IMG/VR virus record: IMGVR_UViG_3300035665_000001
Coordinates: 186,001 to 250,000 of that record
Strand: one strand, 5' to 3'
Source: a virus
DNA length: 64,000 nt
This document shows, piece after piece, positions 2,128 through 58,614 of this stretch. The notes beneath the pieces were generated by a model. It ran no database searches and was not told the origin of the DNA. It saw only the letters and a list, made by a program, of their open reading frames with translations. A program made the position numbers and the translations under genes. Within the stretch, counting starts at the first letter, position 1. The number at the start of each line of letters is the position of its first letter.

Positions 2128-2170
2128 CTTTTAAGGGGAAATGAACTAAATGTTAAATTCCCCTTAAAAG
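2128..2170 (+). terminator. Intrinsic terminator
   Basis: A perfect 13-base inverted repeat (CTTTTAAGGGGAA and its complement at 2158-2170) with a 17-base loop is followed by a T-rich run at 2175-2200. It terminates the plus-strand gene ending at 2118. Its right arm overlaps the 3' end of the converging minus-strand gene. Confidence 0.8.
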
Positions 2171-3570: not shown

Positions 3571-3603
3571 ATTATATTTCTCTGTTGAATATCTTTTAAC
3601 CGC

Positions 3604-4335
3604 CTAAAAAAATAGATCTTTGATTTCTGTAGGTATATATTTTAGATCCTTCGTTTTCTTATATAAGTATTTACCTATAACATTCCTCGTTTTTACATCG
3701 GATAATGCTGCAAATCTAGTTTCTAAGGATTTAATATCTATATTTCTATCTTTATTTAGAATATTTGATATAATTAATTCAACATTTTTTACTTTTTTAC
3801 TTAACGTTAAACAATATCTTATTATTGCATTGTAAATTGTTGACTCTGAATTAAATCCATCAATTTCATCGATAAGCTTGTTTAAAATTTCTACTTCTTT
3901 ACCTTTTTCTCGACTAAAAATAAGATACATAAAATCATTTATTTCTGAAAATGTTCCAAACCCAGCCATTTCTTTAAATGAACCGTCTAACGTAGCCATG
4001 TGTCTTATTATCCATTCTCTATCAATACTTTCAGAATCGAAACTTTTTTTAGCTATTGTCGAACTAAATTTGGTATAACATGTTACTGTTGAATCAAAGT
4101 AAGGTGTATCTTTTAATAGATCCATCATTTCTTTATAATCATCATATGAATCGAATTTATATTTTGACATAAATGCTGATAATATTGCTGCATCATACTT
4201 ATCAAGCTCTTTATTCGCTGGAATAGTATAAAATTCCATCAGTCTTTTAAAAGTTTTCTTTGTAGCGGGTGCTTTTTTTTTAAAAATTGAGAGAATAAAT
4301 ATTCTCCATTTAAGCTGGTTATTATTTAAAGTCAT
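3604..4335 (-). CDS. Helical protein with shared C-terminal peptide
   Basis: A protein of 243 residues, predominantly helical, unrecognised. The N-terminus is basic (IFKKKAPATKKTFKRL). It ends LKYIPTEIKDLFF, which matches the C-terminal pattern [YF][IL]P-x-x-I-x-x-[IL]-F seen in neighbours. The gap to the next minus-strand gene is 33 bases. Upstream, about 330 bases of non-coding, IS200/IS605-like remnant sequence separate it from the gene at 4663, so it may have its own promoter. Confidence 0.6.
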   Translation of the reverse strand: MTLNNNQLKWRIFILSIFKKKAPATKKTFKRLMEFYTIPANKELDKYDAAILSAFMSKYKFDSYDDYKEMMDLLKDTPYFDSTVTCYTKFSSTIAKKSFDSESIDREWIIRHMATLDGSFKEMAGFGTFSEINDFMYLIFSREKGKEVEILNKLIDEIDGFNSESTIYNAIIRYCLTLSKKVKNVELIISNILNKDRNIDIKSLETRFAALSDVKTRNVIGKYLYKKTKDLKYIPTEIKDLFF

Positions 4336-4363
4336 ATTTCATCCACATGTATAAAATTTGTGA

Positions 4364-4660
4364 AGCACTCCGACCTAAAGGACGGAGCTTCTAATGCTTG
4401 TTTCCAAGACTTACAAAGATCTTGATTTCAATGGAAATCACAGCCTTCTCTCCCAGAGACCAATTTGTTTTGGGAACCAAATAACTTCATGATTCTCCGA
4501 TCAACGATCCATTTATATTTGGATCTGCTACAATCTTTACAGATTGCATTAAATTTATTTTGTGGAAATCCACATTTTTATTTATATCGGATTTTGTGAA
4601 AAACTGCCTATCCATCCTAAGCCTAAAGTCCGAGGTCTTACGGTAGGAATGAATAAAATA
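4364..4660. mobile_element. Decayed IS200/IS605-like end (possible omega-RNA remnant)
   Basis: This gene-free stretch holds a hairpin at about 4364-4392, with arms AAGCACTCCG and CGGAGCTT around the loop motif CCTAAAGG, of the kind found at IS200/IS605 (TnpB) element ends. A second imperfect hairpin motif lies at about 4600-4660. A near copy of that second motif (CCTAAAGTCCGAGGTCTTA in both) recurs at about 35836-35880. Read on the minus strand, the first hairpin sits where a TnpB right end/omega-RNA would end. No tnpA or tnpB ORF remains. Assignment rests on recalled family features and the internal repeat. Confidence 0.4.
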
Positions 4661-4662
4661 TC

Positions 4663-5136
4663 TCATAAAAAAAATATATTTTCGATCTGTGAATTTTTTT
4701 TTATCATTTCCATCCATTTTAATTCCAAAGCTATTTTATTGAAATTTTTATTGTTAGATAGAATTTCAGTTTCAAATCTCTTTATTTCCGATAATAGAAA
4801 AAAATTTGCGATTTCTCTATCCCATCTTATGTAGGTAAACAAATTTGGAAACCTTTTTAATACCTTGGTATCATTAATGTTAATTAGATTGATGTTGATT
4901 AGTCCACCATTTCCTTTATACTGTTGCACTTCATTATCTGCGTCATTTTGAGTTTGAATTATCCATTCGAGAACTCTTTCAACATTATATTTATCATTCC
5001 AACCTAATAATTCTGCATCACCTTCACGCATTTCATCAATGATTTTTAATGCTTCATGTGCTGGATCATATTTGCTGTTGTATTTGGTTTCATAAAAATC
5101 TTTGACTTTTTTCCAATATTCATTCGTATCTAACAT
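4663..5136 (-). CDS. Small protein of unknown function
   Basis: A protein of 157 residues, mixed charged and helical, unrecognised. It has a WDREIANFFLLSEIKRFETEI helix and ends KKNSQIENIFFL, which partly resembles the C-terminal peptide of its neighbours. Its start has an AAGG ribosome site and lies 34 bases after the upstream gene. It belongs to the minus-strand series of helical proteins. The decayed transposon end lies directly beyond its stop, so the C-terminus could have been altered by that insertion. Confidence 0.55.
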   Translation of the reverse strand: MLDTNEYWKKVKDFYETKYNSKYDPAHEALKIIDEMREGDAELLGWNDKYNVERVLEWIIQTQNDADNEVQQYKGNGGLININLININDTKVLKRFPNLFTYIRWDREIANFFLLSEIKRFETEILSNNKNFNKIALELKWMEMIKKNSQIENIFFL

Positions 5137-5169
5137 AACCTTTGATTCCTTATTACGTATTTACTATAA

Positions 5170-6612
5170 TCAAAAAGCGAGAACATTTGATAATTTTTTA
5201 AATTTTTCATATGTTGCCTTCCCAGATTTATCGACAGTTTCTACAAAATCCATTGTACTTTTAGGAATAGTTACCACATTATCATCTATTAAATTATTTA
5301 GGATTGAATTGATTGAGGTTTTTATTTTTGGTGGGTATAAATTTGCTTCAAAATGTAACCATAACCAATCATCCGTTGATAAGTTTACTATGCGGGATTT
5401 TATTTTTTGATAGTTAAAATTTAAAGCTTGCATAATATCTATTATATGATATTTTTGTACTTTTATTCCTTTCGGCCAATTAGATTTTACTTTGAAAAAA
5501 GCAACATCGTGGTTCTTTACCAAAAAGTCTAAAATCAAACTGTTTGATAGTAATTCATCTTCTACATTTCCTGGTAGTGTGTTTATGGCTATATAACTGA
5601 TATTCAACTTTTCGAGAATTTCTTTTGTCAACATATTTCCTCGAAATAACCTAAGTATAAACCTAGCTTTTGGTGATATATTTAGTATTTTTGGTGGTGT
5701 TTCTAATACATATTTAACAATTTTGTCTGTTAATTCTATATCTTTATCTAATGCGATTGCTATACCAGTTTTAGAAAAGGCAACATCGACTAATTGTGAT
5801 TTCCATCTAGGGTCAATAAACGACCAATCGTCTGAGTTTACATTAGGGGTAAGTTCGAAATATTTTTTAATTGCGTCTATAGTATAATAAGGCTGAGAAT
5901 TAATTAGGTTGAAATTTTCTGATAATCCACCACTACTTATTAACCACAACGCAAATATTTCTGGGTCAGCTTTAAATGTAGTAGATAGTTGACTCCAAAA
6001 TAATCGTAAAATATTGTATGTTTTTTTGTCAGTGTTTTTTAGATAGTCTATTATTTCTGATCGAGTTAATAAATTTTCTGGTAAGAAAATTATTGAATTT
6101 AAATCTAATTTTAATACTTGTTCTTTTAAAGATTTATCCCACCAATCAGTATGGAAATATTTTATTTGGTATATTTGATTAGTTATCAACCATTCTAATG
6201 TTTTAGTTGATGGTTTTTCTCCATGATAATTACTAAGGAAGTTAGATGAATTTTGTTGCAAATAAGAAATTAACCGTTTTTCAGTTTGTACTTCCCCAGG
6301 TAAAAATGGAAATAGTCCATTTTTAAAATCTGTTTTTGTATATAACCTATCATAAAATTCAAGGTTCAAAAATCCACCAATACCATTAATATCGGGAAAT
6401 TTAAACCATCCAATTATATTTGCTATTGGTGGAGTTTGATATACAAAATATAATTTTTCTATTAATTTTTGCCCATTTGGTGAATCTAAAATAAAATCGA
6501 GTATCTGATTAAATGTTGGTGGGGTAATAGAAATTATTTTTTCTATTTCCGATTTATCAATCGTGGATTGTTTAGATAAATTTATAAAAATTTCATTTTC
6601 AAACGGGTTCAT
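5170..6612 (-). CDS. Large helical protein of unknown function
   Basis: A protein of 480 residues containing many short segments of the type LEWLI, PENLLTRSEIIDYL, PKSTMDFVE, consistent with repeated helix pairs. No catalytic motif is visible. The end is FKKLSNVLAF, hydrophobic but only loosely like the shared peptide. ATG follows a clear AAGGA site. Within the minus-strand series it is 22 bases downstream of the gene at 6634-7122, suggesting co-transcription. Function unknown. Confidence 0.65.
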   Translation of the reverse strand: MNPFENEIFINLSKQSTIDKSEIEKIISITPPTFNQILDFILDSPNGQKLIEKLYFVYQTPPIANIIGWFKFPDINGIGGFLNLEFYDRLYTKTDFKNGLFPFLPGEVQTEKRLISYLQQNSSNFLSNYHGEKPSTKTLEWLITNQIYQIKYFHTDWWDKSLKEQVLKLDLNSIIFLPENLLTRSEIIDYLKNTDKKTYNILRLFWSQLSTTFKADPEIFALWLISSGGLSENFNLINSQPYYTIDAIKKYFELTPNVNSDDWSFIDPRWKSQLVDVAFSKTGIAIALDKDIELTDKIVKYVLETPPKILNISPKARFILRLFRGNMLTKEILEKLNISYIAINTLPGNVEDELLSNSLILDFLVKNHDVAFFKVKSNWPKGIKVQKYHIIDIMQALNFNYQKIKSRIVNLSTDDWLWLHFEANLYPPKIKTSINSILNNLIDDNVVTIPKSTMDFVETVDKSGKATYEKFKKLSNVLAF

Positions 6613-6633
6613 TATGTGTTCCTTACAGAATAA

Positions 6634-7122
6634 TTAAAAAGTAAAACATGACAAAACTTTAATAGCACGTAAAACTTTGTCTATTTCAGTTGATAATTGA
6701 GTTACAATAGTATTCATCTTCATATCAATCTCACCATCTACATGATATAGTGTGATCATTGTTTTAAGTTTTAGTTTTTCATCTAATTCAGCAACCAATA
6801 CATCGGAAATACCTTTGAAAACTAAAGTTGCTGAAAAATCTCTACGAGATGGTGCTTTATATCCAGCACCTAATTCTGAAATTTTAATGGTTGCTACAAC
6901 TTTAATATTATTTACCGGTTGAGTTATAAATGTTATTTTTGTTTTTCCATCAAAGGATGAAACTTTATTCTCAGAATCATATATAATTTCGGTTAAATTT
7001 ATATTAAGTTTATTGAACATATCATCCATTTTTTTGGAAGCGATATCTGTTAACATTTCAACATCATCTTTAAAAGTGTTTCTATCTTGTGCTGATAACA
7101 GTAGTGTTTTTTTAACTGACAT
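6634..7122 (-). CDS. Small protein, possible structural component
   Basis: A protein of 162 residues beginning MSVKKTLLLSAQDRNTFKDD, with alternating beta segments (KTKITFITQPVNNIKVVATIKI) and a helical C-terminal tail. It is the only mainly beta-rich member of this minus-strand cluster. It has a strong GAGGAG site. No family recognised. The location between two helical proteins of the cluster suggests the genes work together, but nothing in the sequence shows how. Confidence 0.6.
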   Translation of the reverse strand: MSVKKTLLLSAQDRNTFKDDVEMLTDIASKKMDDMFNKLNINLTEIIYDSENKVSSFDGKTKITFITQPVNNIKVVATIKISELGAGYKAPSRRDFSATLVFKGISDVLVAELDEKLKLKTMITLYHVDGEIDMKMNTIVTQLSTEIDKVLRAIKVLSCFTF

Positions 7123-7142
7123 TTTTTTATTCTCCTCTCATA

Positions 7143-7769
7143 TTATAGAAATAGTAAATTTTTCATCTTGCTAGATAAAAACTTTTTATCTTTTGTTAGT
7201 TGCACAAATAATTTCAAAATTTTATCTGTGGTCATATTATTATCAAAAACTGCTGAAAATATATCATTGTTTTCTTTACAAGTTGCAAATTTTTGCCCAA
7301 AATCAGAAAAAATCTGTAAAATAATTTCCTCAGAATAATTTTTTTTAGGGTATTTAAAAAAGTTATACCAGAACGTTTCCCAGATTTTATCTGATACTAT
7401 GTTTGTATGATTCATTATAAACTTATATAATGTTAACCACTCAGTATCACTGGCAAAAAATTTTTCATTTTCAAGAGGTTGCATTAAATAAAAACTATAT
7501 GTGGTATTTGATGAGATGAATTTGATAAAATCAAAAATCCATTCCTTTTTAAATGCTTCGTTGTCGTAAAACAATTTATAAACTCTACTATTTTTGTTGA
7601 ATATTTTTACTTTTTTGGGGTTTGTCAACACATTAAAGAATTCATCATTTATATTTTTACTCGACACTATAGCTTCAATAATATCATCGACATCATCACT
7701 GACTAATAATTTACAAAGGTCTTTGGATGATAGGTTATGTATAGTTTCATTATTATTTGAATTTGGCAT
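7143..7769 (-). CDS. Helical protein with shared C-terminal peptide
   Basis: A protein of 208 residues, highly helical and rich in Phe, Lys and Asn. It begins with a short polar leader then LSSKDLCKLLVSDDVDDIIEAI, reminiscent of helical solenoid units. It ends KKFLSSKMKNLLFL, a version of the recurrent C-terminal peptide. The downstream gene begins 21 bases on. Unrecognised. Confidence 0.6.
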   Translation of the reverse strand: MPNSNNNETIHNLSSKDLCKLLVSDDVDDIIEAIVSSKNINDEFFNVLTNPKKVKIFNKNSRVYKLFYDNEAFKKEWIFDFIKFISSNTTYSFYLMQPLENEKFFASDTEWLTLYKFIMNHTNIVSDKIWETFWYNFFKYPKKNYSEEIILQIFSDFGQKFATCKENNDIFSAVFDNNMTTDKILKLFVQLTKDKKFLSSKMKNLLFL

Positions 7770-7780
7770 AATAGTTTACC

Positions 7781-8593
7781 TTACAAAAACAATATATTTG
7801 CAATTTTTTCAGGGATGTACTTATTCGATCTTGTACTAGCGAATGCAGCTTTTTTAACTGCCATTGTTGCATTTTTATGATTGACAGCCTTATCTCTGAA
7901 TCCCTCTAAAAAACTAAAATTTCTAACATCTAATGGTGCTGAAGCAATATCGATAAGAATTGATTCATCTAAATCATCAAATTTTAATAATGTACCAACG
8001 ATAGAATACCAGATATTATCTTTGTATGACCAATCAGCATATTTTTTTAATTTATCATACCAGTCATTTATCAATTTTTTAGTAACATTTTTTGCTGCTA
8101 CTAATTTTTCAAATGCTAGGTAATTGTAATTTTTTGTATTGGGTGGTAATACCCACATATTAAAAAATAAATTTAAATGATTTTCTGTTATGGATGGGTT
8201 TTGAAGAACCTGAGCATAAGATGATGAACTTCGCATTAACGCATTGATTATACTGTCATCGATTACTGGGTTTTCAGCTAATAGTCTTCTAATTTTACCT
8301 CGCAATCCCAAGTTTTTGGATTTTGTTGCTTGTGAGATGCTACTTTGTTTTTCTTCGGTACTAATGTCCTTTAATGTTTTCATCATTAAACGTATAGTAT
8401 CGGGTGTTAAATTTGGATTTAATGCCGCTCCAATCCAGGCGTTATAATTTATTTTATCTGTAATAGTGATTAATTTTTCAACTTCTTTCAATGGTGCTTT
8501 AGAAAATTTTTCACCATCTTTTGTTAATTTAATGTCACTATCAATTGCACCTTGTAATCTAATTTGTCTATCTAAGTATTGACTCATACTCAT
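7781..8593 (-). CDS. Helical-repeat protein with shared C-terminal peptide
   Basis: A protein of 270 residues with repeats of the type LTPDTIRLMMKTL, IDDSIINALMRSS, ITENHLNLFFNMW, LDESILIDIASAP. Each is a helix starting after a short 'N-P-x-[IL]' turn, as in leucine-rich-variant or HEAT-like solenoids. It ends NKYIPEKIANILFL, the clearest example of the shared peptide together with the protein at 2164. It lies 22 bases after the PLP-enzyme gene. Function unknown. Confidence 0.62.
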   Translation of the reverse strand: MSMSQYLDRQIRLQGAIDSDIKLTKDGEKFSKAPLKEVEKLITITDKINYNAWIGAALNPNLTPDTIRLMMKTLKDISTEEKQSSISQATKSKNLGLRGKIRRLLAENPVIDDSIINALMRSSSSYAQVLQNPSITENHLNLFFNMWVLPPNTKNYNYLAFEKLVAAKNVTKKLINDWYDKLKKYADWSYKDNIWYSIVGTLLKFDDLDESILIDIASAPLDVRNFSFLEGFRDKAVNHKNATMAVKKAAFASTRSNKYIPEKIANILFL

Positions 8594-13073: not shown

Positions 13074-14204
13074 ATGAAAACTAAAAATTATCATTATGTT
13101 TACAAAATTACAAATCATAATCCAGTAGATTCACGTAAGTTCTATATTGGTGTTAGAACAACGAAAGGGCGATTACCAGAAGATGATATTAATTATATGG
13201 GTTCATCAGATACATTAACCGCTGCAATTAAAACCCAAGGAAAAAAATATTTTTCTAAAGAAATTTTGTCAGTATGGCAATCAAAGGATGATGCATATGC
13301 TGAAGAAATAAGATTACATGAATTGTATGATGTTTGTAGAAACATGGAATATTATAATAATGCTAACCAAACGAGCACTAAATTTTGTACGGATGGTAGG
13401 GTTGTAGTGTTTGATAAGAACACGGGCAAAACAAAAAGTGTAACAAAAGAAGAATTTCAAACTGTTACTGATTATGTTGGTGTTAAAACAGGTATGGTTT
13501 CCGTAATGGATACTACCGATGGAGTATTTAAATCAGTGTCAAAGGAGGAATTTGAAAAATCCGAACATTATATTCATCCTGCAACTGGTAAAGTAACCGT
13601 GATTGATACCACCGATGGTTTAGTTAAACATGTGAACTGTACAGAATATAGAAGTTGTGAAAATTATGTTTCTATCGCTACTGGAACTGTAACGTGTTAT
13701 GATATTAGAGATGGAAAAAACAAACAAGTTTCTAAAGATGAATTTGATAATGCTGATAATTTAATCAGTTGTAATGCTGGAAAAGTTACTGTGCTTGATA
13801 CTCGTGATGGAATTAAGAAATCGGTAACTAAGGTAGAGTTTGATATTACCTCTCATTATGTCGGTGTTAAATCTGGTAGAGTTACCGCTTTCGATATTCG
13901 GGACAAAAAGTTTAAAACTGTTACGATTGAAGAATTTGCAAATGATGATAATTATGTGAAAGGTAATTCCAAAAAAGTTGTTATTTTTGATAATAATGAT
14001 AATGTGGTTTTTGTATCTTATGGCAATTTTGAAACTTTTTGTAAAAAACATAAATTGCCGTGCTTTGTATTTAGAATGTCATATCGTAATAATGGCAGTC
14101 CAATCTATCAAAATTTAAGAGGCGTAACAAAAGCAAAGATATTTAAAAATGGAAACTACAAATATATCGGTTGGTATGCTAAAATTAGTGATGATACAAC
14201 TTAA
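13074..14204 (+). CDS. GIY-YIG homing endonuclease with internal repeats
   Basis: A free-standing homing endonuclease that would cut an unoccupied target site and copy itself in. The GIY-YIG domain is N-terminal: YVY at 8-10, YIG at 24-26, then R28-like arginine and a Glu-containing helix (AYAEEIRLHELYDV). From about residue 108 to 310 there are roughly six repeats of about 33 residues on the theme GKVTVIDTTDG...KSVSKEEFE...HYI, apparently a DNA-contacting linker. The C-terminal KNGNYKYIGWYAKI resembles a DNA-binding tail. Its stop overlaps by 4 bases the stop of the terminase C-terminal fragment, so it sits exactly at the edge of a fractured gene. Confidence 0.8.
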   Translation: MKTKNYHYVYKITNHNPVDSRKFYIGVRTTKGRLPEDDINYMGSSDTLTAAIKTQGKKYFSKEILSVWQSKDDAYAEEIRLHELYDVCRNMEYYNNANQTSTKFCTDGRVVVFDKNTGKTKSVTKEEFQTVTDYVGVKTGMVSVMDTTDGVFKSVSKEEFEKSEHYIHPATGKVTVIDTTDGLVKHVNCTEYRSCENYVSIATGTVTCYDIRDGKNKQVSKDEFDNADNLISCNAGKVTVLDTRDGIKKSVTKVEFDITSHYVGVKSGRVTAFDIRDKKFKTVTIEEFANDDNYVKGNSKKVVIFDNNDNVVFVSYGNFETFCKKHKLPCFVFRMSYRNNGSPIYQNLRGVTKAKIFKNGNYKYIGWYAKISDDTT

Positions 14205-15511
14205 AAAACAGAAGGGAGAATATCCCATTTATCCATATCGGAGTCAGGATCATAATCATCATCCTCATCATATTCTACAACAGATGAACCATTTTGTGCC
14301 ATTCTGGCGTAGTATTCTCTTTCCTGTTTCTTTGCTTCTTCAATTAATTTTAGTTCTTCCTGTTTTTGTTGTTCTAATCGCAAAGTTTCTTTTTCTACTC
14401 GTTCTTTATATAATTTCGCAGGATCAATTTCTTCTTTATTGGTGTTGATAATTTTTTCATCTTTTTTAGTAATCAACATATTATCAACAGAAAAATCACC
14501 CATCGCGTAGTTTGCGAATTCATTAAGAAGATAATATACCATTAAGAATGAACAGGTGACTCTATCGTCAGTATAACCAGATTTAGCACAATACGCCCCA
14601 CCAGCTGTTCTAATAAATCCATATAATTCCTCAATAAATCTTCCATCTCGAATTACCATTTTGTCGTACTCAACCAAATTTTTAAATTGTAATGCTAGTT
14701 TATTTTTAAGAGTTGGGGTTATGTGTAATCCAGGTTTACCCTTAATATCATAGAAGATAGGCATTTCAAGATTTTCGATTGCCTTTTCAGTTTGGGTTAA
14801 AATTTGAGCTAATCCCTCACCAATACCATTACGTTCAAAGATAATAAGTGCTTCATTTGGTTCATACTGCCATCTTGTTCGCATGTAATCCTGTAACCAT
14901 AATAATTTTTCAAATAGTACTGATGCATCAGCAAATTCATCGACAAAAGAGGCGATTTCATAAACCTTATGTGGTGCTATTTCCCAAATTTGTAAACAAC
15001 TACTATTATTACCACCTGCGGATGGGTCAATAGTTACCACTAACAAACCATCATCGTGCTCCAATTTATCTTTAAAAATATTAAAACCATTAACATCCTC
15101 CTCAAGAATTTCAGGTATTTGGTAAAAATCTAAAATATCTGTAGAAATTAATGAAAGTTCGAAAGTGATGAAAGCACAATTATGGGTTTTTAATGAATTA
15201 GCCAATAAAAAACTGTGCTCATCGTTTTCAACCTCAATAATATCAAACATTTTGGTAAAATTGTGAATTTCATTGATTTCCTCCACCTCACACAAACCCG
15301 TTTCGGTTTTTAAATCAAACCCCACTAATAAATCTTTTGCTTTTATTAACAGGTTATTTGATGTCCAAAATAAATGTTCACCAGAACATTTTACCGAAAT
15401 ATCATTGCTTAATTTTATTTCAAAAAACGAATTATGTTCAGATGATGCTATTCCTGCAAACGCTTTGTAACCTTCAGGAGTTTTTATTTTAAATCTATTA
15501 TTTTTTACCAT
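14201..15511 (-). CDS. Terminase large subunit, C-terminal piece fused to C-terminal split-intein half
   Basis: The first 111 residues are a C-intein: TPEGYKAFAGI, a block-B-like region with CSGEHLFWT, block F MFDIIEVENDEHSFLLAN, and the splice end THN followed by Cys112. There is no block A, so the N-intein must be elsewhere. The candidate is the 46-residue tail of the ORF at 44010, because EFE there plus CAFITFELSLIS here rebuilds the T4 gp17-like EFECxF region. Residues 112-436 are the terminase nuclease: TIDPSAGG (D162), an ERNGIGEG motif and TDDRV. The tail is a charged coiled coil. The terminase would need trans-splicing from distant loci. Confidence 0.88.
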   Translation of the reverse strand: MVKNNRFKIKTPEGYKAFAGIASSEHNSFFEIKLSNDISVKCSGEHLFWTSNNLLIKAKDLLVGFDLKTETGLCEVEEINEIHNFTKMFDIIEVENDEHSFLLANSLKTHNCAFITFELSLISTDILDFYQIPEILEEDVNGFNIFKDKLEHDDGLLVVTIDPSAGGNNSSCLQIWEIAPHKVYEIASFVDEFADASVLFEKLLWLQDYMRTRWQYEPNEALIIFERNGIGEGLAQILTQTEKAIENLEMPIFYDIKGKPGLHITPTLKNKLALQFKNLVEYDKMVIRDGRFIEELYGFIRTAGGAYCAKSGYTDDRVTCSFLMVYYLLNEFANYAMGDFSVDNMLITKKDEKIINTNKEEIDPAKLYKERVEKETLRLEQQKQEELKLIEEAKKQEREYYARMAQNGSSVVEYDEDDDYDPDSDMDKWDILPSVF

Positions 15512-15615
15512 GAATTTTTTCTCAAATTAATGTAATTAAACTATATTTATGAATTTTTTGTTGAAACAATTACAAAAATAAATAAATATAATAAAATTAT
15601 AATTTGGAGAAAAAA

Positions 15616-16422
15616 ATGACGGTAGTAAACCAGAGTGATATTAAAAGTGGTTCAAAACCTGTTAGGGATTTATTTTCATTACTACCAAAAGACAGAGATT
15701 ATGGTTGGTTGTGTACGCAAACCTATTCAAATGACGATCTTGTCGAAATTTCATATATTGTGAATAATATTGAGAGTCCACATATCAAGAATTTTGGTTT
15801 TTTTAACTTACTGATACAGAGTCAAGCTGGACCATTCAATTCTGCTGTTTTTGCTGTCTATTTAAAAGAGTTAAATGCTGTAGATGTTCTAATTCATTTG
15901 ATCGCAAAAACCCCTAACTTATCAGAAAAAGAAAAAATTGCTTGGTTGGAAAACCCAAATATTATATCTAAAGGTTTTATGACAATGGTTAGATATTTTT
16001 TTGATCATGGTGTTGCCGCACAATGTGGAATTTCTAATACTAAATCACCATATAATGTGATATTTGCAAAAGAAATAATGGTATATGGTTATAGTACAAA
16101 TCATGATCGATTAAAAGACTTTTTATTTGGTTCGTTAAATTCTTTGACTCCTGCTGAATTAGATTCATGGTATCGTGAAACTCTTTTTATGATTTGTGGT
16201 GAGGATAATTATGTAGCAGTTGATGTGTTGGGTGATTATCCAAATACACCCGAAAATTTGTTGGATGACTATTTTTCACATACTCAAAACACTGCGTTGA
16301 AATTGAAATTGGCTTTGCATAAAAATTTCCCAGTAAAAAAAATATATCCTATATGGAAAGAAACTGAAAATACCATATTGTATGATAAGTTACCAGCGTC
16401 AATAAAAAGCTTGATATTCTAA
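15616..16422 (+). CDS. Helical protein with shared C-terminal peptide
   Basis: A protein of 268 residues from the ATG preceded by TTGGAG. Unrecognised; helical, with repeated short units such as NTPENLLDDYFSHTQ like those of the solenoid proteins at 7781 and 52049. It ends YDKLPASIKSLIF, the recurrent C-terminal peptide, although it lies 6 kb from the minus-strand cluster and on the other strand. That makes the peptide unlikely to be a simple by-product of tandem duplication. Confidence 0.62.
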   Translation: MTVVNQSDIKSGSKPVRDLFSLLPKDRDYGWLCTQTYSNDDLVEISYIVNNIESPHIKNFGFFNLLIQSQAGPFNSAVFAVYLKELNAVDVLIHLIAKTPNLSEKEKIAWLENPNIISKGFMTMVRYFFDHGVAAQCGISNTKSPYNVIFAKEIMVYGYSTNHDRLKDFLFGSLNSLTPAELDSWYRETLFMICGEDNYVAVDVLGDYPNTPENLLDDYFSHTQNTALKLKLALHKNFPVKKIYPIWKETENTILYDKLPASIKSLIF

Positions 16423-43780: not shown

Positions 43781-44009
43781 CCACAAAAAATTGACACAAC
43801 CGTATATTTTCTTCAGAGTACACATTATGTCACTCAATTCAACAAGCCGGTAATCCTCAAAAATTTGTTAAAAATTCCAACACACGGGTATCTCACTACC
43901 CATAAGTTGACAAAAAATTGGTATTAATTAATTACGTTGACTTTTTTCATCACCTTGCTAAAAATTATAAATAGAATAACATCAGCAAAAAACTATTTAG
44001 AGTAAGATA

Positions 44010-44798
44010 ATGAAAGATATTAATGAGTGGGAGATTTTAACTCCAGAGGGATGGCGTGATTTTTCGGGAATTATCCAATTAGATAAGAAAGTTATCACTA
44101 TTGAATTTGATAATGGTAAACAGTTAACAGGTAGTGAAACACATCGAATTTTTTCTAAAATTGGAATACAAGAATTTAACACTTTAATGGTTGGTGATGA
44201 AATCAAAACCAATGATGGTTGGACTGTGGTAACTAAAATTTCAGATGTAAAACAAACTCAGAAAGTATATGATTTGGTAGAAGTAAAATCAGCTAACCAT
44301 CAATATTATACCAATGGTTTTGTTTCAAAAAATTGTGATGAGATTGCGTTTATTCCCAACAGAATTCAGGAAGAATTTATGTCTGGCACAACACCGGCTC
44401 TTTCTGCTACAAAAGGAAAAATGTTAATTACCTCAACGCCCAATGGTTCGAGAGATTTATTTGCGAAACTTTGGTTTGGATCCGGTATGACATGGGATAA
44501 AAAACAATATACATACGTCAGAAAAAATGAACCAAAAAACCTTTTTAGTCCATTATTTGTACCTTTTTGGATTGACCCAGAAAAAAACACTGATGAATGG
44601 ATTCACAGAGAAAAGATGACTCTCGATAGCCCAATAGCATGGAAAATAGAGTTTGAATGTATGTATCCAGATACGTTGATTGATGTATATGATGAAAAAA
44701 CTAAAAATTATCAAACAATAACTATAGAAGATATGTATCGAATGATACTTCGAGATGAAATTGAGAATAAAGTTATTATTGATGAATCTGATAATTAG
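44010..44798 (+). CDS. Terminase large subunit, middle piece flanked by two split-intein halves
   Basis: Residues 1-108 are a C-intein: ILTPEGWRDFSGI, a block-B-like GSETHRIF, LMVGDEIKTNDGW, block F VYDLVEVKSANHQYYTNGFV, end SKN then Cys109. Penultimate residue is Lys, not the usual His. The extein (109-216) is the ATPase Walker B and coupling region of a T4 gp17-like terminase: CDEIAFIPN with catalytic DE, then MLITSTPNGSRDLF. After EFE a second intein begins at Cys217 (CMYPDTLIDVYDEK, TITIEDMYRM) and stops after 46 residues. The N-terminal Walker A piece is not in the window; the next piece is at 14201 on the other strand. The design resembles the AceL-TerL split intein as I remember it. 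Confidence 0.88.
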   Translation: MKDINEWEILTPEGWRDFSGIIQLDKKVITIEFDNGKQLTGSETHRIFSKIGIQEFNTLMVGDEIKTNDGWTVVTKISDVKQTQKVYDLVEVKSANHQYYTNGFVSKNCDEIAFIPNRIQEEFMSGTTPALSATKGKMLITSTPNGSRDLFAKLWFGSGMTWDKKQYTYVRKNEPKNLFSPLFVPFWIDPEKNTDEWIHREKMTLDSPIAWKIEFECMYPDTLIDVYDEKTKNYQTITIEDMYRMILRDEIENKVIIDESDN

Positions 44799-46592: not shown

Positions 46593-48056
46593 TTGAGAAC
46601 CATATTAAAATTTATATTGATTACACTACTTTTGTTATTACCCGTAGTATTGATAACAAATCTAGGTGTGATACAACCTTCATACTATCATATTATTATA
46701 AATCAAATTTACAATACGGTAATTATAGTTTTGTCTGTATGTTTTATTACTACTATTGTTGGTGTAACACTATCATGGGTATTTGCAATTTACGATTTCC
46801 CCTTTAAAAATAGTTTGGAAAAAATAATTATTTTAGGTATGGTTTTTCCAAGTTATGTATTGGCATTTTTTTATTCCGAAATGTTTAATATCTTTGGTTC
46901 AATTGCGTTAATTGGTACTTTAGTTGTTACCACATTACCTTATGTTTTTATGATGGTAACTACCAGTATCCGAATACAATCCCAACGTATGGTTGAATCG
47001 GCATTGATGTTTGGTAAAGATAAGAGATGGATAAAAGGTAAATTGATATTGCCATTAATTTTTCCAACAATCGTTTTATCAACATTATTGGTTATGGGAG
47101 ATACATTTTCTGAATTTGGTGCCACTTATTTTTATGGTGTTAATACTGTGATGACTGGAATTTACGAAATTTGGTTTGGTTTGAATGAATCTATACAAGG
47201 GATACGATTGTCAGCATGGTTGTTAACAGTTGTTATAATGGTATATTTGGTTATTAATGTTTTGAAAAAAGTATTTGTTGATAAATCCGATAATTTTATA
47301 AACAGTCGTGAATTTAAAGGTATAGTGGTCGAGAATATAGGTATTAAAGGTTGGTTTATAACTTTTTTAATATTCTTACTAACCATTATTACTTTTTTTA
47401 TACCTTGTTTCGTGTTATTAACATGGGTAATTGAAAGTTATAACAAAACCGATTGGTTTAAAGTTTTAGCAACCACAATTAATTCGGGAATCTTAGCATC
47501 AATAATATCTTTAAGTGTATTATGTGTTACCACTATAATTTTATATTTGTTTAAGCATCGGCTAGTGGCAATAATGACAATTTGTAATACGTTGTATTCA
47601 ATACCAGGTATTGTTTTGGCAATAACGACAATCTTTATATCTACACATCTTCCATTGAGTTTTACACCTGTTATATTTTTGTATGTTTTAATAGTCAAGT
47701 ATATTGCAATTGGTGTTGATAATATTAGTGCTCCAATTCAAAAAATTCATAAACAACATTATCACTCCTCAAAATTGTTAGGTCATAGTTCCTTATGGTA
47801 TATTAAAAATGTTCAGTTTCCATTAGGTTTTCAAATATATTTGGTTGCAGGATTATTAGTTTGGATCGATGTCATTCGGGAATTAGTAATAGGGTTGACT
47901 ATTAGACCACAGGGATTAAATTTATTAAGTATCGAAATTTTTAGATTTATGGATTTAGAACAATTATCTATGAGTGGTCCTTGGATTTTATCTATGGTTA
48001 TTTTAACAATGGTTCCAATTTATTTTATAAATATGGTTTTAAAGCAAAATAGGTAA
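46593..48056 (+). CDS. Fe(III)-type ABC transporter permease (FbpB-like)
   Basis: A protein of 487 residues with about 12 membrane spans in two repeated halves, as in FbpB/AfuB-type permeases. Both halves carry EAA-loop-like segments contacting the ATPase: ESALMFGKDKRWIKGKLILP and SSKLLGHSSLWYIKNVQFP. Starts at TTG 46593, supported by a strong AAGGAGAG site 7 bases upstream. The ATPase gene begins 6 bases after the stop and the binding-protein gene follows, so this is a complete three-gene importer operon. No Fur box could be recognised upstream. Codon use and AT content match the phage neighbours. Confidence 0.85.
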   Translation: MRTILKFILITLLLLLPVVLITNLGVIQPSYYHIIINQIYNTVIIVLSVCFITTIVGVTLSWVFAIYDFPFKNSLEKIIILGMVFPSYVLAFFYSEMFNIFGSIALIGTLVVTTLPYVFMMVTTSIRIQSQRMVESALMFGKDKRWIKGKLILPLIFPTIVLSTLLVMGDTFSEFGATYFYGVNTVMTGIYEIWFGLNESIQGIRLSAWLLTVVIMVYLVINVLKKVFVDKSDNFINSREFKGIVVENIGIKGWFITFLIFLLTIITFFIPCFVLLTWVIESYNKTDWFKVLATTINSGILASIISLSVLCVTTIILYLFKHRLVAIMTICNTLYSIPGIVLAITTIFISTHLPLSFTPVIFLYVLIVKYIAIGVDNISAPIQKIHKQHYHSSKLLGHSSLWYIKNVQFPLGFQIYLVAGLLVWIDVIRELVIGLTIRPQGLNLLSIEIFRFMDLEQLSMSGPWILSMVILTMVPIYFINMVLKQNR

Positions 48057-48062
48057 ATCTGT

Positions 48063-48968
48063 ATGTTTGATGTAAAAAATCTAAACCTAATAATAGATGA
48101 TGTTGATATTCTACACAATATAAACTTTGATATTCATAATGGTGAAATACTTTCTATTATTGGACCGAGTGGTTGTGGTAAATCATCTATTTTAAAATCT
48201 ATAGCTGGAATTTATAAACATACTACAGGGGCATTAATATTAGATGGTGAAAATATCGCGGACAAACCTATTAATCTCAGAAATGTCAACTTAGTTTTTC
48301 AAGATTTCCCTTTGTTTCCACATATGACTACTATACAAAATATGCTTGTTGCCTGTGATAATAACCGAGTTATTGATATAGTCCTCGATGAAATGGGTAT
48401 CAAACATTTAAAATTTAAATATCCTCATGAAATGAGTGGTGGTGAACAACAACGAGTTGCATTAGCTCGTGCGATAGTGTATAAACCCAAATTATTATTA
48501 TTGGACGAACCATTTTCAAATATTGATGTGCTAACCACAAAAGTATTGAGACATAAAGTATTTAATTTATTGAAGCAATTTAATATTACTACTCTAATGG
48601 TTACACATGATTTGGATGATGTTTTTGAAATGAGTGAAAGATGTATCGTTATGAAAAATTCGAGTATTGTACAGTTTGATACTTTTGATAATTTATACAA
48701 TTATCCAGTTGACGAATATGTTTCAACTTTATTCGGTAATGTTGTTTCTTATGCAGGTAAAAATTATAGACCAGAAAATATATTAATTATTGCAGATTAT
48801 TCACCTAATTCCGTTAAAACTGTAATTAAAAATGTAAAATTTAAATCACATTATAATGAAATAACTTTAGAATTGGATAATAAACAAGATATCATTGTTT
48901 TTGATTATTATCGTAAAAAGTATAAAATTAATGAGATTATGTATTTGAATTTTAATAACCCATTATAG
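48063..48968 (+). CDS. ABC transporter ATP-binding protein (FbpC-like)
   Basis: A protein of 301 residues with all nucleotide-binding motifs: Walker A GPSGCGKSS (34-42), Q-loop VFQDFPLFPHMT, signature MSGGEQQRVALARA (124-137), Walker B LLLLDEPFSN (D148, E149) and H-loop MVTHDLDD. The C-terminal ~90 residues form a small regulatory extension, shorter than in typical FbpC/PotA. It energises the permease encoded 6 bases upstream. All catalytic residues are intact. Confidence 0.88.
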   Translation: MFDVKNLNLIIDDVDILHNINFDIHNGEILSIIGPSGCGKSSILKSIAGIYKHTTGALILDGENIADKPINLRNVNLVFQDFPLFPHMTTIQNMLVACDNNRVIDIVLDEMGIKHLKFKYPHEMSGGEQQRVALARAIVYKPKLLLLDEPFSNIDVLTTKVLRHKVFNLLKQFNITTLMVTHDLDDVFEMSERCIVMKNSSIVQFDTFDNLYNYPVDEYVSTLFGNVVSYAGKNYRPENILIIADYSPNSVKTVIKNVKFKSHYNEITLELDNKQDIIVFDYYRKKYKINEIMYLNFNNPL

Positions 48969-48980
48969 GAAAAACATATT

Positions 48981-49976
48981 ATGAAGAAAAATTTATGGTT
49001 GCTACTTTTTTTGTTTGGTATTTATAATGCATCTGCTTCAGATAAAAAGAGTATTCATGTTATTACTGATAGAAGTGATGCACACTTATTAGATTTAACA
49101 TCAAAATTTGAAAAAGAAAGTGGTGTTGAAGTGAATTTAACATTCGTTAAAAATGGCATTATTGAAAAAGTAAAAAGTTATGATTATGATGCAATTATCA
49201 GTAAGGATAGTAGTGAATTAGTTGCGGCGAAAGATGAGGGGTTGTTACATACTATTGATGATAGTGTGCTAGACAACATTCCAACCAATTTTAAGGATAT
49301 TGATAAACAATGGTTTAATATGAGCTATAGAATTAGATCATTTCATATGAAGAAAGGTTTAACAGATGCACCAACATCGTATGAGGATTTAGCAAAACCC
49401 CAGTATAAAAATAGAATTTGTATTAGAAGTTTAACTCACAATTACAATTTAGAAATGTATGGAACTATGTTATCATATATGGGTGAGGAGAAATTTACTA
49501 ACTGGTTTAAAGGATTTAAATCGAATATAGTTAAAGATTCGGCAGCAGGAAATGATAGAACCCAGGTTAAAGGTGTGTATGATGGTGAATGTGACATAGC
49601 AGTTGCAAATTCATATTATCGTGGATTGATGTTACAAGATCCGGAGCAAAAAAAATGGGCAGAAGCAACATATTTATACATACCTAACCAAGAAAACGGT
49701 AGAGGAGCGATAGCATTGTATTCTGCAGTAGGTTCGTTATCGGATAATACCAATAATAAAACATTTTTGAATTATTTAATTTCAAAAGAAACGCAACAAC
49801 AGTTATCATATGATAATTATGAATATCCAATTAAAACTGAAAATACATCACCTACTGTTAAACAATATGGTGATGCACAGAAATTGGACTATAAATCAAT
49901 CAAATTATTTGATAATGTTCAAAACGATTTATTTGAATTGAGAAAAAAAGCTTATTTAATTATTAAAGCCAACTAA
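48981..49976 (+). CDS. Periplasmic Fe(III)-binding protein (FbpA-like)
   Basis: A protein of 331 residues with a Sec signal peptide (MKKNLWLLLFLFGIYNASA, cleavage after ASA). The mature part is a type II periplasmic binding fold of the Fe(III) group: HVITDRSDAHLLDL at the start and CDIAVANSYYRGLM, where Tyr212-Tyr213 match the iron-ligating tyrosine pair of FbpA; WFNMSYRIRS is also family-like. It would capture iron in the host periplasm for the permease. Starts 12 bases after the ATPase gene; its stop overlaps a converging gene by 4 bases. Substrate is inferred from the tyrosine pair. Confidence 0.82.
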   Translation: MKKNLWLLLFLFGIYNASASDKKSIHVITDRSDAHLLDLTSKFEKESGVEVNLTFVKNGIIEKVKSYDYDAIISKDSSELVAAKDEGLLHTIDDSVLDNIPTNFKDIDKQWFNMSYRIRSFHMKKGLTDAPTSYEDLAKPQYKNRICIRSLTHNYNLEMYGTMLSYMGEEKFTNWFKGFKSNIVKDSAAGNDRTQVKGVYDGECDIAVANSYYRGLMLQDPEQKKWAEATYLYIPNQENGRGAIALYSAVGSLSDNTNNKTFLNYLISKETQQQLSYDNYEYPIKTENTSPTVKQYGDAQKLDYKSIKLFDNVQNDLFELRKKAYLIIKAN

Positions 49977-50944
49977 AACAAAACCAATTTTGCAATTGGG
50001 GTGAGTTTAATAAATTCACCCCAATGTTTCCAATCTCTTTCAGCTGATATAGTTTTTACAAACACTTTTGATCTTGAATTGAGGTCGGCAATCAAATCCT
50101 CATCAAATAATATTTTATCATCTTTTAATAATGAAATAGCTAATTGTTTCCATTCATCGTCAGAAAATTTAAAAAAATCTAAATATTTTGGATTCTCAAC
50201 GTATAAATCTGACATATTTTTAATAACTACTTGACCAATAGCTGTTGATGATATTCTCACAAATGGCAATATCTTTTCTAATGATCTGGATGATAAATTT
50301 CGTAAAAATGGATAGGTATAAACTGATAGTCCTGTCAATACTTTACCATCTCTTATAATACCCATTTTTATATAAAAATCAATAGTTTCATCTTCTCTAT
50401 CAAGTGAACGACAATTCAATAATATTGATGCCACCCAATTATTGTCAATGATGGGATAGTTTTTAACACCGTAAGTTTTAACCAACCATTCCATTGCAGG
50501 TAAATTGTGAAATTTATAAAACAATTGAAAGTATTTTATATCACTGAAATTTGTTAATTTATTTTCCTTGTATAACTTATCAAGTATTGGTACAACATTG
50601 GGATCATCATACTTTATACTTGATAAATCGGCATCAAAGAAAAATTTACGCAATTCTGGTGTAAATTTATCAATGGTTAATTTTTTTAACATTGCCGCAG
50701 TTATTGAATATCTACCCTTTGGTGTTTTTTTGATTTCTATACCATTTGCTTTTAAGGCTGATACAATAATTTCGACTTTTTTATTGAATTCATCGATTTT
50801 TAGATTTGATGTGTAATTGTTTCCTCGTCCAAAATAATCCAATATTTCTTCACGCAATCCACATTGTGAATTTCTAAAGGTTTCTAACCATTCGATTATG
50901 TTTAATCTTCCAGAAAGGGGTAAACTTAATAATTTTGATGCCAT
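49973..50944 (-). CDS. Helical protein of unknown function
   Basis: A protein of 323 residues, mostly helical with solenoid-like units (YENPKYLDFFKFSDDEWKQ, MAS-starting N-terminus with LSGRLNIIEWLETFRNSQ). It ends FIKLTPIAKLVLF, similar in character to the shared C-terminal peptide. It converges with the iron-binding protein gene, overlapping 4 bases. Function unknown. Confidence 0.6.
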   Translation of the reverse strand: MASKLLSLPLSGRLNIIEWLETFRNSQCGLREEILDYFGRGNNYTSNLKIDEFNKKVEIIVSALKANGIEIKKTPKGRYSITAAMLKKLTIDKFTPELRKFFFDADLSSIKYDDPNVVPILDKLYKENKLTNFSDIKYFQLFYKFHNLPAMEWLVKTYGVKNYPIIDNNWVASILLNCRSLDREDETIDFYIKMGIIRDGKVLTGLSVYTYPFLRNLSSRSLEKILPFVRISSTAIGQVVIKNMSDLYVENPKYLDFFKFSDDEWKQLAISLLKDDKILFDEDLIADLNSRSKVFVKTISAERDWKHWGEFIKLTPIAKLVLF

Positions 50945-55176: not shown

Positions 55177-55470
55177 ATGGCTAAGAAAGACACAACCACA
55201 TCTACATCTAAAAGTGCCACACCTAAAAAAAATGATTTATTCACCAAAATGAGAAAAAACATTCTTAAAAAGAATGAAGATGCAATGTTAGATTTAACGG
55301 AACCTACTGTTTGGGCATCATCTGGAAATTATGTATTAAATCATATTTTGAGTGGTAGATTTCATAGAGGTTATCCTTCTGGAAGAATTGTACAAATTTT
55401 TGGTGATTCTGGGTGTTTATTGCCACATGAAAAAATAAAAGTGTATGAATTCAAATCAAATATTGTATGA
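55177..55470 (+). CDS. uvsX: UvsX/RecA recombinase, N-terminal piece with an 18-residue N-intein
   Basis: A protein of 97 residues. Residues 1-79 are the N-terminal region of a UvsX/RecA-type strand-exchange ATPase, with LNHILSGRFHRGYPSGRIVQ leading to the first half of the P-loop, IFGDSG. At residue 80 the recombinase breaks off and an intein begins (CLLPHEKIKVYEFKSNIV), ending after only 18 residues. The second half of the P-loop (SGKS) is encoded in the next gene after a C-intein. Neither ORF alone could bind ATP, so trans-splicing is required. An 18-residue N-intein is shorter than the 25 residues I recall for AceL-TerL. Confidence 0.9.
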   Translation: MAKKDTTTSTSKSATPKKNDLFTKMRKNILKKNEDAMLDLTEPTVWASSGNYVLNHILSGRFHRGYPSGRIVQIFGDSGCLLPHEKIKVYEFKSNIV

Positions 55471-55533
55471 AATACTTGTTAAATTATTATAAAACTAACA
55501 ATCAAAAAATAAAAAACTTTATTGGAGAACAAA

Positions 55534-56856
55534 ATGATTGAAAACAATGTTAGAGAATTAACTGATAAAGAAAAATTACTGGAATTAAAAGAATGGTATT
55601 CCTCTGATGAATTATCAAAATCCCTTGATGTTACTGAAGAAATGCTTGGTAATTTTTTAAATGATAAAAGTTCTTTTACATTAACAAATTCTGAGAAATT
55701 GAACGATTTTTTTAATAACCATGTTCATGAAAATTCAAAATTTGAAATGATTAAAAATGTTTATGGTTTGTGGGAAACTGATGAAAAACAATTTATGGTT
55801 GATACTCCTGATGGGTTTCAATTTGTTAGTGAATTTATTCATAAAGATTCAAGAAGTTGCTTTGACTTAAGAACCGATAATTTTCATATTGAATGTTCGG
55901 GTGACCATTTGATTGAAACTGATAAAGGTTGGGTGAAAACTGAAGATATTGTAGTTGGTTCAAAAGTGTTAACCCGTGTTGGTTTTGAGGAAGTTAAATC
56001 AAATGCACAACTTAGTGATAGTGATGTTTACGATATGACTGTTGAACATGATAATCATCGATATTGGGGTGGTGCCGGTATTTCATCACATAATTCTGGT
56101 AAATCTTTTCTTATGGCTAAAGCGATTGTTGAGGCTCAAAAAGAAGGTTATATGGTGGCAGTATTAGATTCGGAACAAGCGGTTTCACAGGATTATTTGA
56201 AAAAAATTGGGGTTGATTTAGACCCATCAATGTTAATGACTGTGCAGGTACAAACAGTTGAACAAACTCAAGATATGCTTCTAGAAGTTTTGGAAGGTGT
56301 TAAGGAAGAACAAGAAGCTTTAGGAAATACCAAAGAACTAAAATTATTACTGATTGTTGATTCCATTGGTATGCTTTCATCTGGAAAAGCACTAGCAAAT
56401 GCTGAAGCTGGACATCACGCGGCTGATATGGGTACTAAAGCAAAAGCATTAACCAATATGTTCAACCAAATTGTACAAAAAGTTGGTATTACTGAAACTG
56501 TTTGTTTAGTAACTAATCATGGAGCATTAGAAGTTGGAGTTATGTTCCCACAACTCAAACCAAAAGGTGGACAATGTTTAGTAGCAGGTACAAAAGTACA
56601 AACTGATAAAGGTTATAAAAATATTGAAGAAATCCAAGTTGGTGATATGGTGAGAACACACTTGAACCAAATTAAACCTGTTGAAAAATTATTTAGTTTC
56701 GATAATCTTGATATTCTTAATTTTGAATTAGAAACAGGACAAAACATTAAAATGTCGAAGGATCATAAAATGTTAGTTTTGCGAAATGGTGAAAAATTGT
56801 GGTTGGAAGCTCAATTTATAACTACTTATGATTCATTGTTAGCACTTGATGTTTAA
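55534..56856 (+). CDS. uvsX: UvsX/RecA recombinase, middle piece between two split-intein halves
   Basis: A protein of 440 residues from ATG 55534 (GGAG site). Residues 1-~85 are an extra helical, possibly HTH-like leader (WYSSDELSKSLDVTEEML). 86-187 are the C-intein (VDTPDGFQFV, block-B-like CSGDHLIET, block F VYDMTVEHDNHRYWGGAGI, end SHN). Ser188 starts the extein SGKSFLMAKA, finishing the P-loop, through LLIVDSIGML (Walker B) and LVTNHGALEVGVM to KPKGGQ at 347. Cys348 begins a second, 93-residue N-intein (CLVAGTKVQTDKGYKNIEEI, VGDMVRTH, SKDHKMLVL). Its partner is at 57946. A strong terminator follows. Confidence 0.92.
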   Translation: MIENNVRELTDKEKLLELKEWYSSDELSKSLDVTEEMLGNFLNDKSSFTLTNSEKLNDFFNNHVHENSKFEMIKNVYGLWETDEKQFMVDTPDGFQFVSEFIHKDSRSCFDLRTDNFHIECSGDHLIETDKGWVKTEDIVVGSKVLTRVGFEEVKSNAQLSDSDVYDMTVEHDNHRYWGGAGISSHNSGKSFLMAKAIVEAQKEGYMVAVLDSEQAVSQDYLKKIGVDLDPSMLMTVQVQTVEQTQDMLLEVLEGVKEEQEALGNTKELKLLLIVDSIGMLSSGKALANAEAGHHAADMGTKAKALTNMFNQIVQKVGITETVCLVTNHGALEVGVMFPQLKPKGGQCLVAGTKVQTDKGYKNIEEIQVGDMVRTHLNQIKPVEKLFSFDNLDILNFELETGQNIKMSKDHKMLVLRNGEKLWLEAQFITTYDSLLALDV

Positions 56857-57945: not shown

Positions 57946-58614
57946 ATGAACTCAAATGAGTTTTTAGTCGATTCAAATTATAAACCAGTTAAGATTAAAT
58001 CTATTACCCCTGTGGCAATAGAAAAAACTTATGATTTTCAAGTTGCTGACGATCATAGTTTTTTATTAGAAAATAATATAATTTCAAGTAATTGTATGGA
58101 ATTTGTACCATCAATTTCTTTGCGTGTAACTAAAGGTAAGATTAAACCCACTGATTTGGCAGAATTAGAATATTTGTATGATGGTGGAATACCAAAACAT
58201 TTGGGTGCTTTAGGGATTGTATCGAGAATTGAATTGTATAAATCCCGATTTACCCGACCTTTTAGAAAGGTACAATTGATGATTCCATACGATTTTGGAT
58301 TACCTGAATATGCGGGATTATTTGATTATCTCAAAGATAATGGTATAATTATTGAAAATGGTAGAAAAGGTTATTATAATTGTACTGAGGTACAATTTGA
58401 AAAAGATTTTACTAGAAAAGATTTTATTAAAGGTGGTTGGGCTGATTTAATTATGGAACATTTATTAGCTGAGGAAACCAAAGGTAGAATTTATGATTTT
58501 ATTATGAAATCTAGTGATGATGATGCCCGAGAAAAAGAACAAGGATTAGATTCAATTGATGACTCTTACATTGAAGATGATGATATGGATGAATCGGAAT
58601 TTAATGTTGAATAA
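57946..58614 (+). CDS. uvsX: UvsX/RecA recombinase, C-terminal piece with C-intein
   Basis: A protein of 222 residues. Residues 1-49 are a C-intein: KPVKIKSITPVAIEKTYDFQ and block F TYDFQVADDHSFLLENNII, ending SSN then Cys50. The penultimate residue is Ser rather than the usual His. Residues 50-222 are the UvsX C-terminal part (CMEFVPSISLRVTKGKIKPT, then a helical DNA-binding region and acidic tail DDDMDESEFNVE). GGQ (end of piece two) joined to CMEF rebuilds the RecA-family 'GG-x-x-[LM]-[EK]-F' strand. AAAGGAG site; own promoter needed because of the terminator at 56871. Confidence 0.9.
   Translation: MNSNEFLVDSNYKPVKIKSITPVAIEKTYDFQVADDHSFLLENNIISSNCMEFVPSISLRVTKGKIKPTDLAELEYLYDGGIPKHLGALGIVSRIELYKSRFTRPFRKVQLMIPYDFGLPEYAGLFDYLKDNGIIIENGRKGYYNCTEVQFEKDFTRKDFIKGGWADLIMEHLLAEETKGRIYDFIMKSSDDDAREKEQGLDSIDDSYIEDDDMDESEFNVE

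Follow-up and report, generated by a model that had tools for sequence, protein, structure and literature searches.

We analysed a 64,000-nucleotide stretch of DNA (the window), G000:186001-250000, where G000 is the 306,333-b phage record IMGVR_UViG_3300035665_000001 of IMG/VR. It contains a gene, P3, that encodes a middle piece of a T4-type terminase large subunit (TerL) between two intein halves. With a probability of roughly 0.87, the TerL of this 306-kb phage is encoded by four genes (P1 to P4) whose products are joined by three split inteins (A, B and C), homing and then rearrangement having scattered the pieces.

P3 is an open reading frame (ORF) of 262 aa at 44010-44798 (+), from ATG to TAG, and is composed of three parts, residues 1-108, 109-216 and 217-262:

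44010-44333, plus strand: C-intein half (IntC-B), 108 aa, ending in FVSKN
44334-44657, plus strand: TerL extein, 108 aa, from Walker B (CDEIAFIPN) through the motif TSTP to WKIEFE
44658-44795, plus strand: N-intein half (IntN-C), 46 aa, starting with CMYPDTLIDVY

When P3 was searched alone, residues 8-110 matched CatC (PDB 6DSL_B), which is the consensus for the C-halves of atypical split inteins in TerL, with an E-value of 8.8e-8, and the match reaches across the splice point. The NCBI intein C-terminal model TIGR01443 reached its curated cut-off in the same half, at G000:230265-230336. A preliminary description of the window had read residues 1-108 as a C-intein abutting CDEIAFIPN, and both matches bear this out. 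Residues 109-216 matched a PHROG terminase family (E-value 1.9e-10). The other end of P3, already taken there for an N-intein, aligns with the short N-intein halves (IntN) of other TerL split sites, and its design is common to L152, L153, L160 and other loci. In the AlphaFold (AF2) model of P3, the predicted local distance difference test score (pLDDT) is about 90 for residues 31-80 and 64.7 on average, so the model is confident for this core only; the top 50 Foldseek matches of the model were all intein or Hint structures. With these signals well above chance, P3 is confirmed as a genuine intein-flanked gene for a TerL middle piece. Its splice point had been placed directly before the Asp-Glu of Walker B; it does lie at Walker B, but one residue earlier, because the extein opens with Cys-Asp-Glu, the Cys being the +1 residue.

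A search of the record with the P3 ORF gave three further C-inteins, which belong to P4, P2 and an AAA ATPase; the single-sequence matches of the P3 C-intein to two other C-inteins of the genome had E-values of 5.7e-10 and 4.5e-6. P1 was located by reading the DNA to the left of the window. The additional pieces are as follows:

G000:184957-185298, minus strand: P1, 113 aa, 0.7 kb left of the window; extein up to the Walker A Lys (SRQMSK), then a 32-aa N-intein beginning CVKGNSIITVRN
G000:169358-170110, minus strand: P2, 250 aa, 15.9 kb left of the window; C-intein, Walker A-to-Walker B segment, N-intein
window 14201-15511, minus strand: P4, 436 aa; C-intein and nuclease domain
window 15179-15511, minus strand: C-intein half of P4 (IntC-C), 111 aa, ending in LKTHN
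window 14204-15178, minus strand: extein of P4, the TerL nuclease domain, 325 aa, starting with CAFITFE

In P2, the C-intein ends in LSHN, the extein runs from TTIGAFYLLYE to LKFVY, and the N-intein starts with CLDGKTQ. The C-intein of P4 matches CatC (7.7e-4) and exceeds the cut-off of TIGR01443, and its extein matches a PHROG terminase family (1.3e-5) and the terminase nuclease structure 3C6A (6e-4) and aligns with gp17. Along the genome the order is P2, P1 and P4, all on the minus strand, and then P3 on the plus strand, over a span of 61 kb. The preliminary description had proposed at least three genes, the first of them, with Walker A, outside the window. The split itself stands, but the exact number is four, as Walker A is cut (K/TT; a slash marks the splice point) and the Walker A-to-Walker B core is a separate piece. 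P1 is the expected ORF that ends in a Walker A terminase domain plus a short N-intein, and it does lie outside the window. P1 was not recovered with phrog_5989 or phrog_36964, and Pfam PF03237 had no match in the genome, probably because each TerL piece is too short to score. The pattern QxGK-C had no match in the window because P1 carries SK instead of GK and sits outside it. Single-sequence scans of IMG/VR with P1, P3 and P4 gave no close relative.

When the four exteins (81 + 88 + 108 + 325 = 602 aa) were joined in silico, the protein aligned with T4 gp17 (3EZK) with an E-value of 4.3e-35 over residues 37-502, as a single continuous alignment in which none of the joints is gapped, and showed homology to T4-type TerL in both the ATPase and the nuclease domain. 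The invariant columns of the alignment (A5) include D171/E172, T202 to P205, D328, E392 and D481/D482; Walker B, the motif TSTP and the nuclease Asp/Glu/Asp residues are kept, as are K81/T82 of Walker A. Insertion at catalytic motifs, which had been suggested from P3, holds for two of the three sites, Walker A (K/TT) and Walker B (Y/CDE); the third is near the boundary between the ATPase and nuclease domains.

The IntN lengths of 32 and 33 aa, with a third of 46 aa that is a little longer, and the C-intein half (IntC) lengths of about 102-111 aa fit the short-IntN atypical class. In the atypical TerL split inteins, an IntN of 25-37 aa completes a nearly whole IntC of about 104 aa (PMC11766414). 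Searched singly, the P2 C-intein also matched CatC (8.3e-5), and the C-inteins match gp41-1 and VidaL as well. All three inteins have Cys1 and a terminal Asn, with the +1 residue as N/T, N/C and N/C. The penultimate His is present in P2 and P4 (HN); it is usual, neither obligatory nor defining. Among collected C-inteins of the Walker B site (L143-L195), 35 of 40 end in Gln (HQ/CDE) and not in Asn.

The following assembly is likely. P1, ending at the Walker A lysine, would bear N-intein A; P2 would contribute C-intein A, the Walker A-to-Walker B segment and N-intein B; P3 would contribute C-intein B, the segment from Walker B to the hinge and N-intein C; and P4 would supply C-intein C and the remainder including the nuclease domain. 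Once the four pieces are translated, every N-intein would dock on its own C-intein, complete the Hint fold and join the flanking segments, so that three trans-splicing reactions would yield one 602-aa motor protein. The spliced TerL would release the junction peptide FVYCDEIAFIPNR after trypsin digestion.

The GOS and AceL TerL N-inteins have been reported to be interchangeable (PMC11766414), and cross-talk is therefore a real issue here. The IntN of P1 and P2 are 38% identical, and that of P3 is 22% and 33% identical to them. P2 and P3 have the order C-intein, extein, N-intein and would circularise if their own halves paired; this topology is the one used for making cyclic peptides. Because of these risks of cross-talk and circularisation, we strongly predict that the three TerL inteins are pair-specific. 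More tentatively, and with more doubt than confidence, it may be that three related split inteins, mutually orthogonal within one cell, build an essential motor out of the products of four unlinked genes and have evolved specificity against skipping and circularising, and that the assembly could also time or gate DNA packaging.

Several points weigh against a spliced four-gene TerL. The penultimate residue of the P3 C-intein is Lys (KN) in place of the usual His, and in P1 a Walker A Gly is replaced by Ser (RQMSKTT). Because the record has a linear classification and is perhaps not complete, a second, intact terminase could lie outside it. P2 is the only locus seen in an independent assembly. 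Splicing, its specificity, co-expression of the pieces and the order of events are inferred.

Alternatively, the pieces might be expressed and assemble non-covalently without being (fully) spliced. Such assembly has a precedent in a ribonucleotide reductase gene bisected by a homing endonuclease, whose parts are reported in PMC10448857 to assemble non-covalently, and the non-standard penultimate residue of P3 would fit it. However, matching halves, Cys1, Cys or Thr at +1 and the terminal Asn are kept at all three sites, and since Walker A and Walker B are themselves cut, it is unlikely that a P-loop could arise from chains left unjoined; we regard this explanation as very improbable. We attach similarly little weight to the idea that the pieces are decaying remnants and that the true terminase is encoded outside the record or has diverged beyond recognition. 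The record may be a fragment from which the N part of topoisomerase II is also missing, the Walker A Gly has become Ser, and partial second TerL-like copies stand beside TerL in XaC1 and G014; but four open frames of 113-436 aa persist in 70% A+T DNA with the catalytic residues kept, and P1 to P4 are the sole TerL matches in the 306-kb record. Least credible is a dispersal that is an assembly artefact of a metagenome-derived record, with the pieces truly contiguous as in the collinear relative G010, since 8.7 kb or more round P2 recurs in L063, an independent 140-kb contig, at 100% identity, tandem-repeat length aside, with no match to P1, P3 or P4, and dispersed TerL genes also occur in the isolates SCTP-2 and VmeM-32. 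The tandem-repeat difference, of about 36 b, is in a Gly-rich repeat protein (L015:4292-5086); the two are assemblies of one phage.

The four-gene TerL has relatives. The Walker A site is split at K/TT in Agrobacterium phage Atu_ph07, in adjacent genes; in Vibrio phage VmeM-32, where the pieces are dispersed, the N piece next to gp16 and the remainder next to gp18 at a distance of 79 kb within the record; and in a 735-kb uncultured phage record. Salicola phage SCTP-2 (MF360958) has this split and a Walker B split at the identical residue (Y/CDE), its three-gene TerL consisting of gp534 at 429 kb, gp267 at 256 kb and gp224 at 216 kb. In IMGVR_UViG_3300020198_000018 (L082/G010, stretch L254), all three splits are present in four genes collinear within 5 kb, with endonuclease-like genes inside inteins A and B; in L256/G003, too, an endonuclease gene separates intein halves that share a locus. 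In IMG/VR, an ORF starts with a site-A C-intein at 53 of 80 loci, and at seven of these it also closes with a short IntN at or close to Walker B. At 40 of 43 loci an ORF starts with a Y/CDE C-intein, and at 11 of these it closes, like P3, with a short IntN at the third site. Since the scans were seeded with intein patterns, these fractions are not prevalences.

Three features of the window lie next to P3 or P4:

44807-45970, plus strand: Vsr-like (EDxHD-type) putative homing endonuclease, 387 aa, directly after the P3 IntN
13074-14204, plus strand: putative GIY-YIG homing endonuclease of the SegE type, converging on P4 with a 4-b overlap
43966-43973, plus strand: TATAAATA, a T4-type late promoter word, 44 b upstream of P3

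The Vsr-like protein matches phrog_22677 (5e-23), phrog_13076 endonuclease (1.6e-4) and, under its cut-off, vsr TIGR00632 (0.006), and also the endonuclease gene within intein A of L254/G010 (blastp 2e-13). The SegE-type protein matches PF19835 (1.2e-7) and phrog_314 homing endonuclease (6e-18), and a paralogue about 40% identical to it (L015:2116-3351) adjoins P2. Both SegE-type proteins consist mostly of short repeats, V.DTRDG..K.VS..EF. The word TATAAATA, under-represented in the window (9 copies), recurs 78 b upstream of P1 and was not found upstream of P2 or P4. It may serve as a promoter before P1 and P3, which is a minor argument.

Homing elements probably invaded the intein sites singly, in turn. 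TerL would have been broken into collinear pieces, as in L254, by endonuclease genes lying in the inteins, and later rearrangement would have dispersed them to the order 2-1-4-3 on both strands. Dispersal would cost nothing and gene order would be irrelevant, because splicing would be in trans. In a C-intein tree with few columns and weak deep forks, intein halves sort largely by insertion site, the 51 site-A rows needing 2 changes as against 31 in shuffles, which is the pattern to be expected from renewed homing into each site. The P3 and P4 C-inteins lie on long, weakly placed branches. An origin of the three inteins by duplication inside G000 is unsupported; the site-A halves and the majority of the site-B halves fall with their counterparts from the same site in other phages. 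TerL in G000 does not show the fractured-gene layout, with both halves at one locus and an endonuclease gene between them; P3 retains an endonuclease gene on its IntN side and SegE-type genes abut P2 and P4. We regard this TerL as derived from the fractured-gene arrangement and not as a standard member.

Cyanobacterial dnaE-n and dnaE-c are widely separated genes on opposite strands whose products are joined by trans-splicing of the DnaE split intein. DnaE is joined from two pieces by a single intein whose IntN is long, whereas the G000 TerL has four pieces and three short-IntN inteins. AceL-TerL, GOS-TerL and the engineered consensus Cat share with it the TerL host and the CatC match of the P3, P2 and P4 C-inteins, but they are described as single split inteins, whereas here three different ones would join four proteins. 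The fractured genes of Dassa et al. (2009) are reportedly essential phage genes interrupted by a split intein that is associated with free-standing genes for Vsr-like endonucleases; unlike theirs, the G000 halves are not side by side but 15-61 kb apart on both strands, and the collinear state is found in G010. SCTP-2 resembles G000 in its Walker A and Walker B split sites, with pieces dispersed over 213 kb; it differs in having three pieces, an unsplit third site and a contiguous intein at another site, and its three genes are annotated merely as 'terminase large subunit'. We know of no natural protein for which three trans-splicing reactions join four pieces encoded by separate, unlinked genes, and no paper in the library searched was found to describe one. 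Literature searches gave no four-gene or three-split terminase, although a mention in Dassa 2009 or Bachmann & Mootz 2015 is possible, and the Atu_ph07 paper does not mention an intein. TerL split inteins, fractured genes and dispersed trans-spliced genes are thus known separately, and their combination in this extreme form is apparently new.

G000 is rich in inteins, with at least 12 intein sites by count. A UvsX/RecA-like recombinase is encoded by three genes (window 55177-55470, 55522-56856 and 57946-58614, plus strand), with a short atypical IntN at Walker A (GDSG/C to SSHN/SGKS) and a second, canonical split intein (GGQ/CLVAGT to IISSN/CMEF). The AAA ATPase is in two genes (L014:1110-3140 and 3413-5032, minus strand; G000:1110-5032), with an atypical split intein at the Walker A motif (GEPGIGK/CLRG to IHHN/TAHM). 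NrdA (L061:2496-5968, plus strand) comprises three adjacent ORFs with two intein pairs, the halves only about 100 b apart with no endonuclease gene between, and the T4-type portal gene (L060:2960-6127, plus strand) has two closely spaced contiguous inteins, of which the second carries an HNH domain. At L061:12959-14197 and 14214-16001 (plus strand), a C part of the topoisomerase II large subunit, the N part of which was not found in the record, opens with a C-intein; after it comes a DUF7487 protein that includes an endonuclease-like stretch. L062:2519-3103 (minus strand), a C-intein before a helicase-like tail (THN/SASGDTNDISEENIQGG) with no family match, is possibly a gp41-type C piece. Apart from inteins, the window encodes a complete ABC importer at 46593-49976 (plus strand; permease, ATPase and solute-binding protein: BPD_transp_1, ABC_tran, SBP_bac_6). 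Many different ORFs at 2164-8593, 15604-16422 and 49973-50944 share a similar short tail (PEKIKKIIFF, KSLIF or NILFL at the end), possibly as an expanded paralogous family.

In conclusion, a gene once fractured by split inteins has parts that are free to relocate round the genome. The three related natural split inteins of this TerL ought to be orthogonal in one cell, and would be useful for multi-fragment protein assembly. The finding is also a warning for annotation: the terminase, a widely used phage marker, may look absent when it is in pieces.
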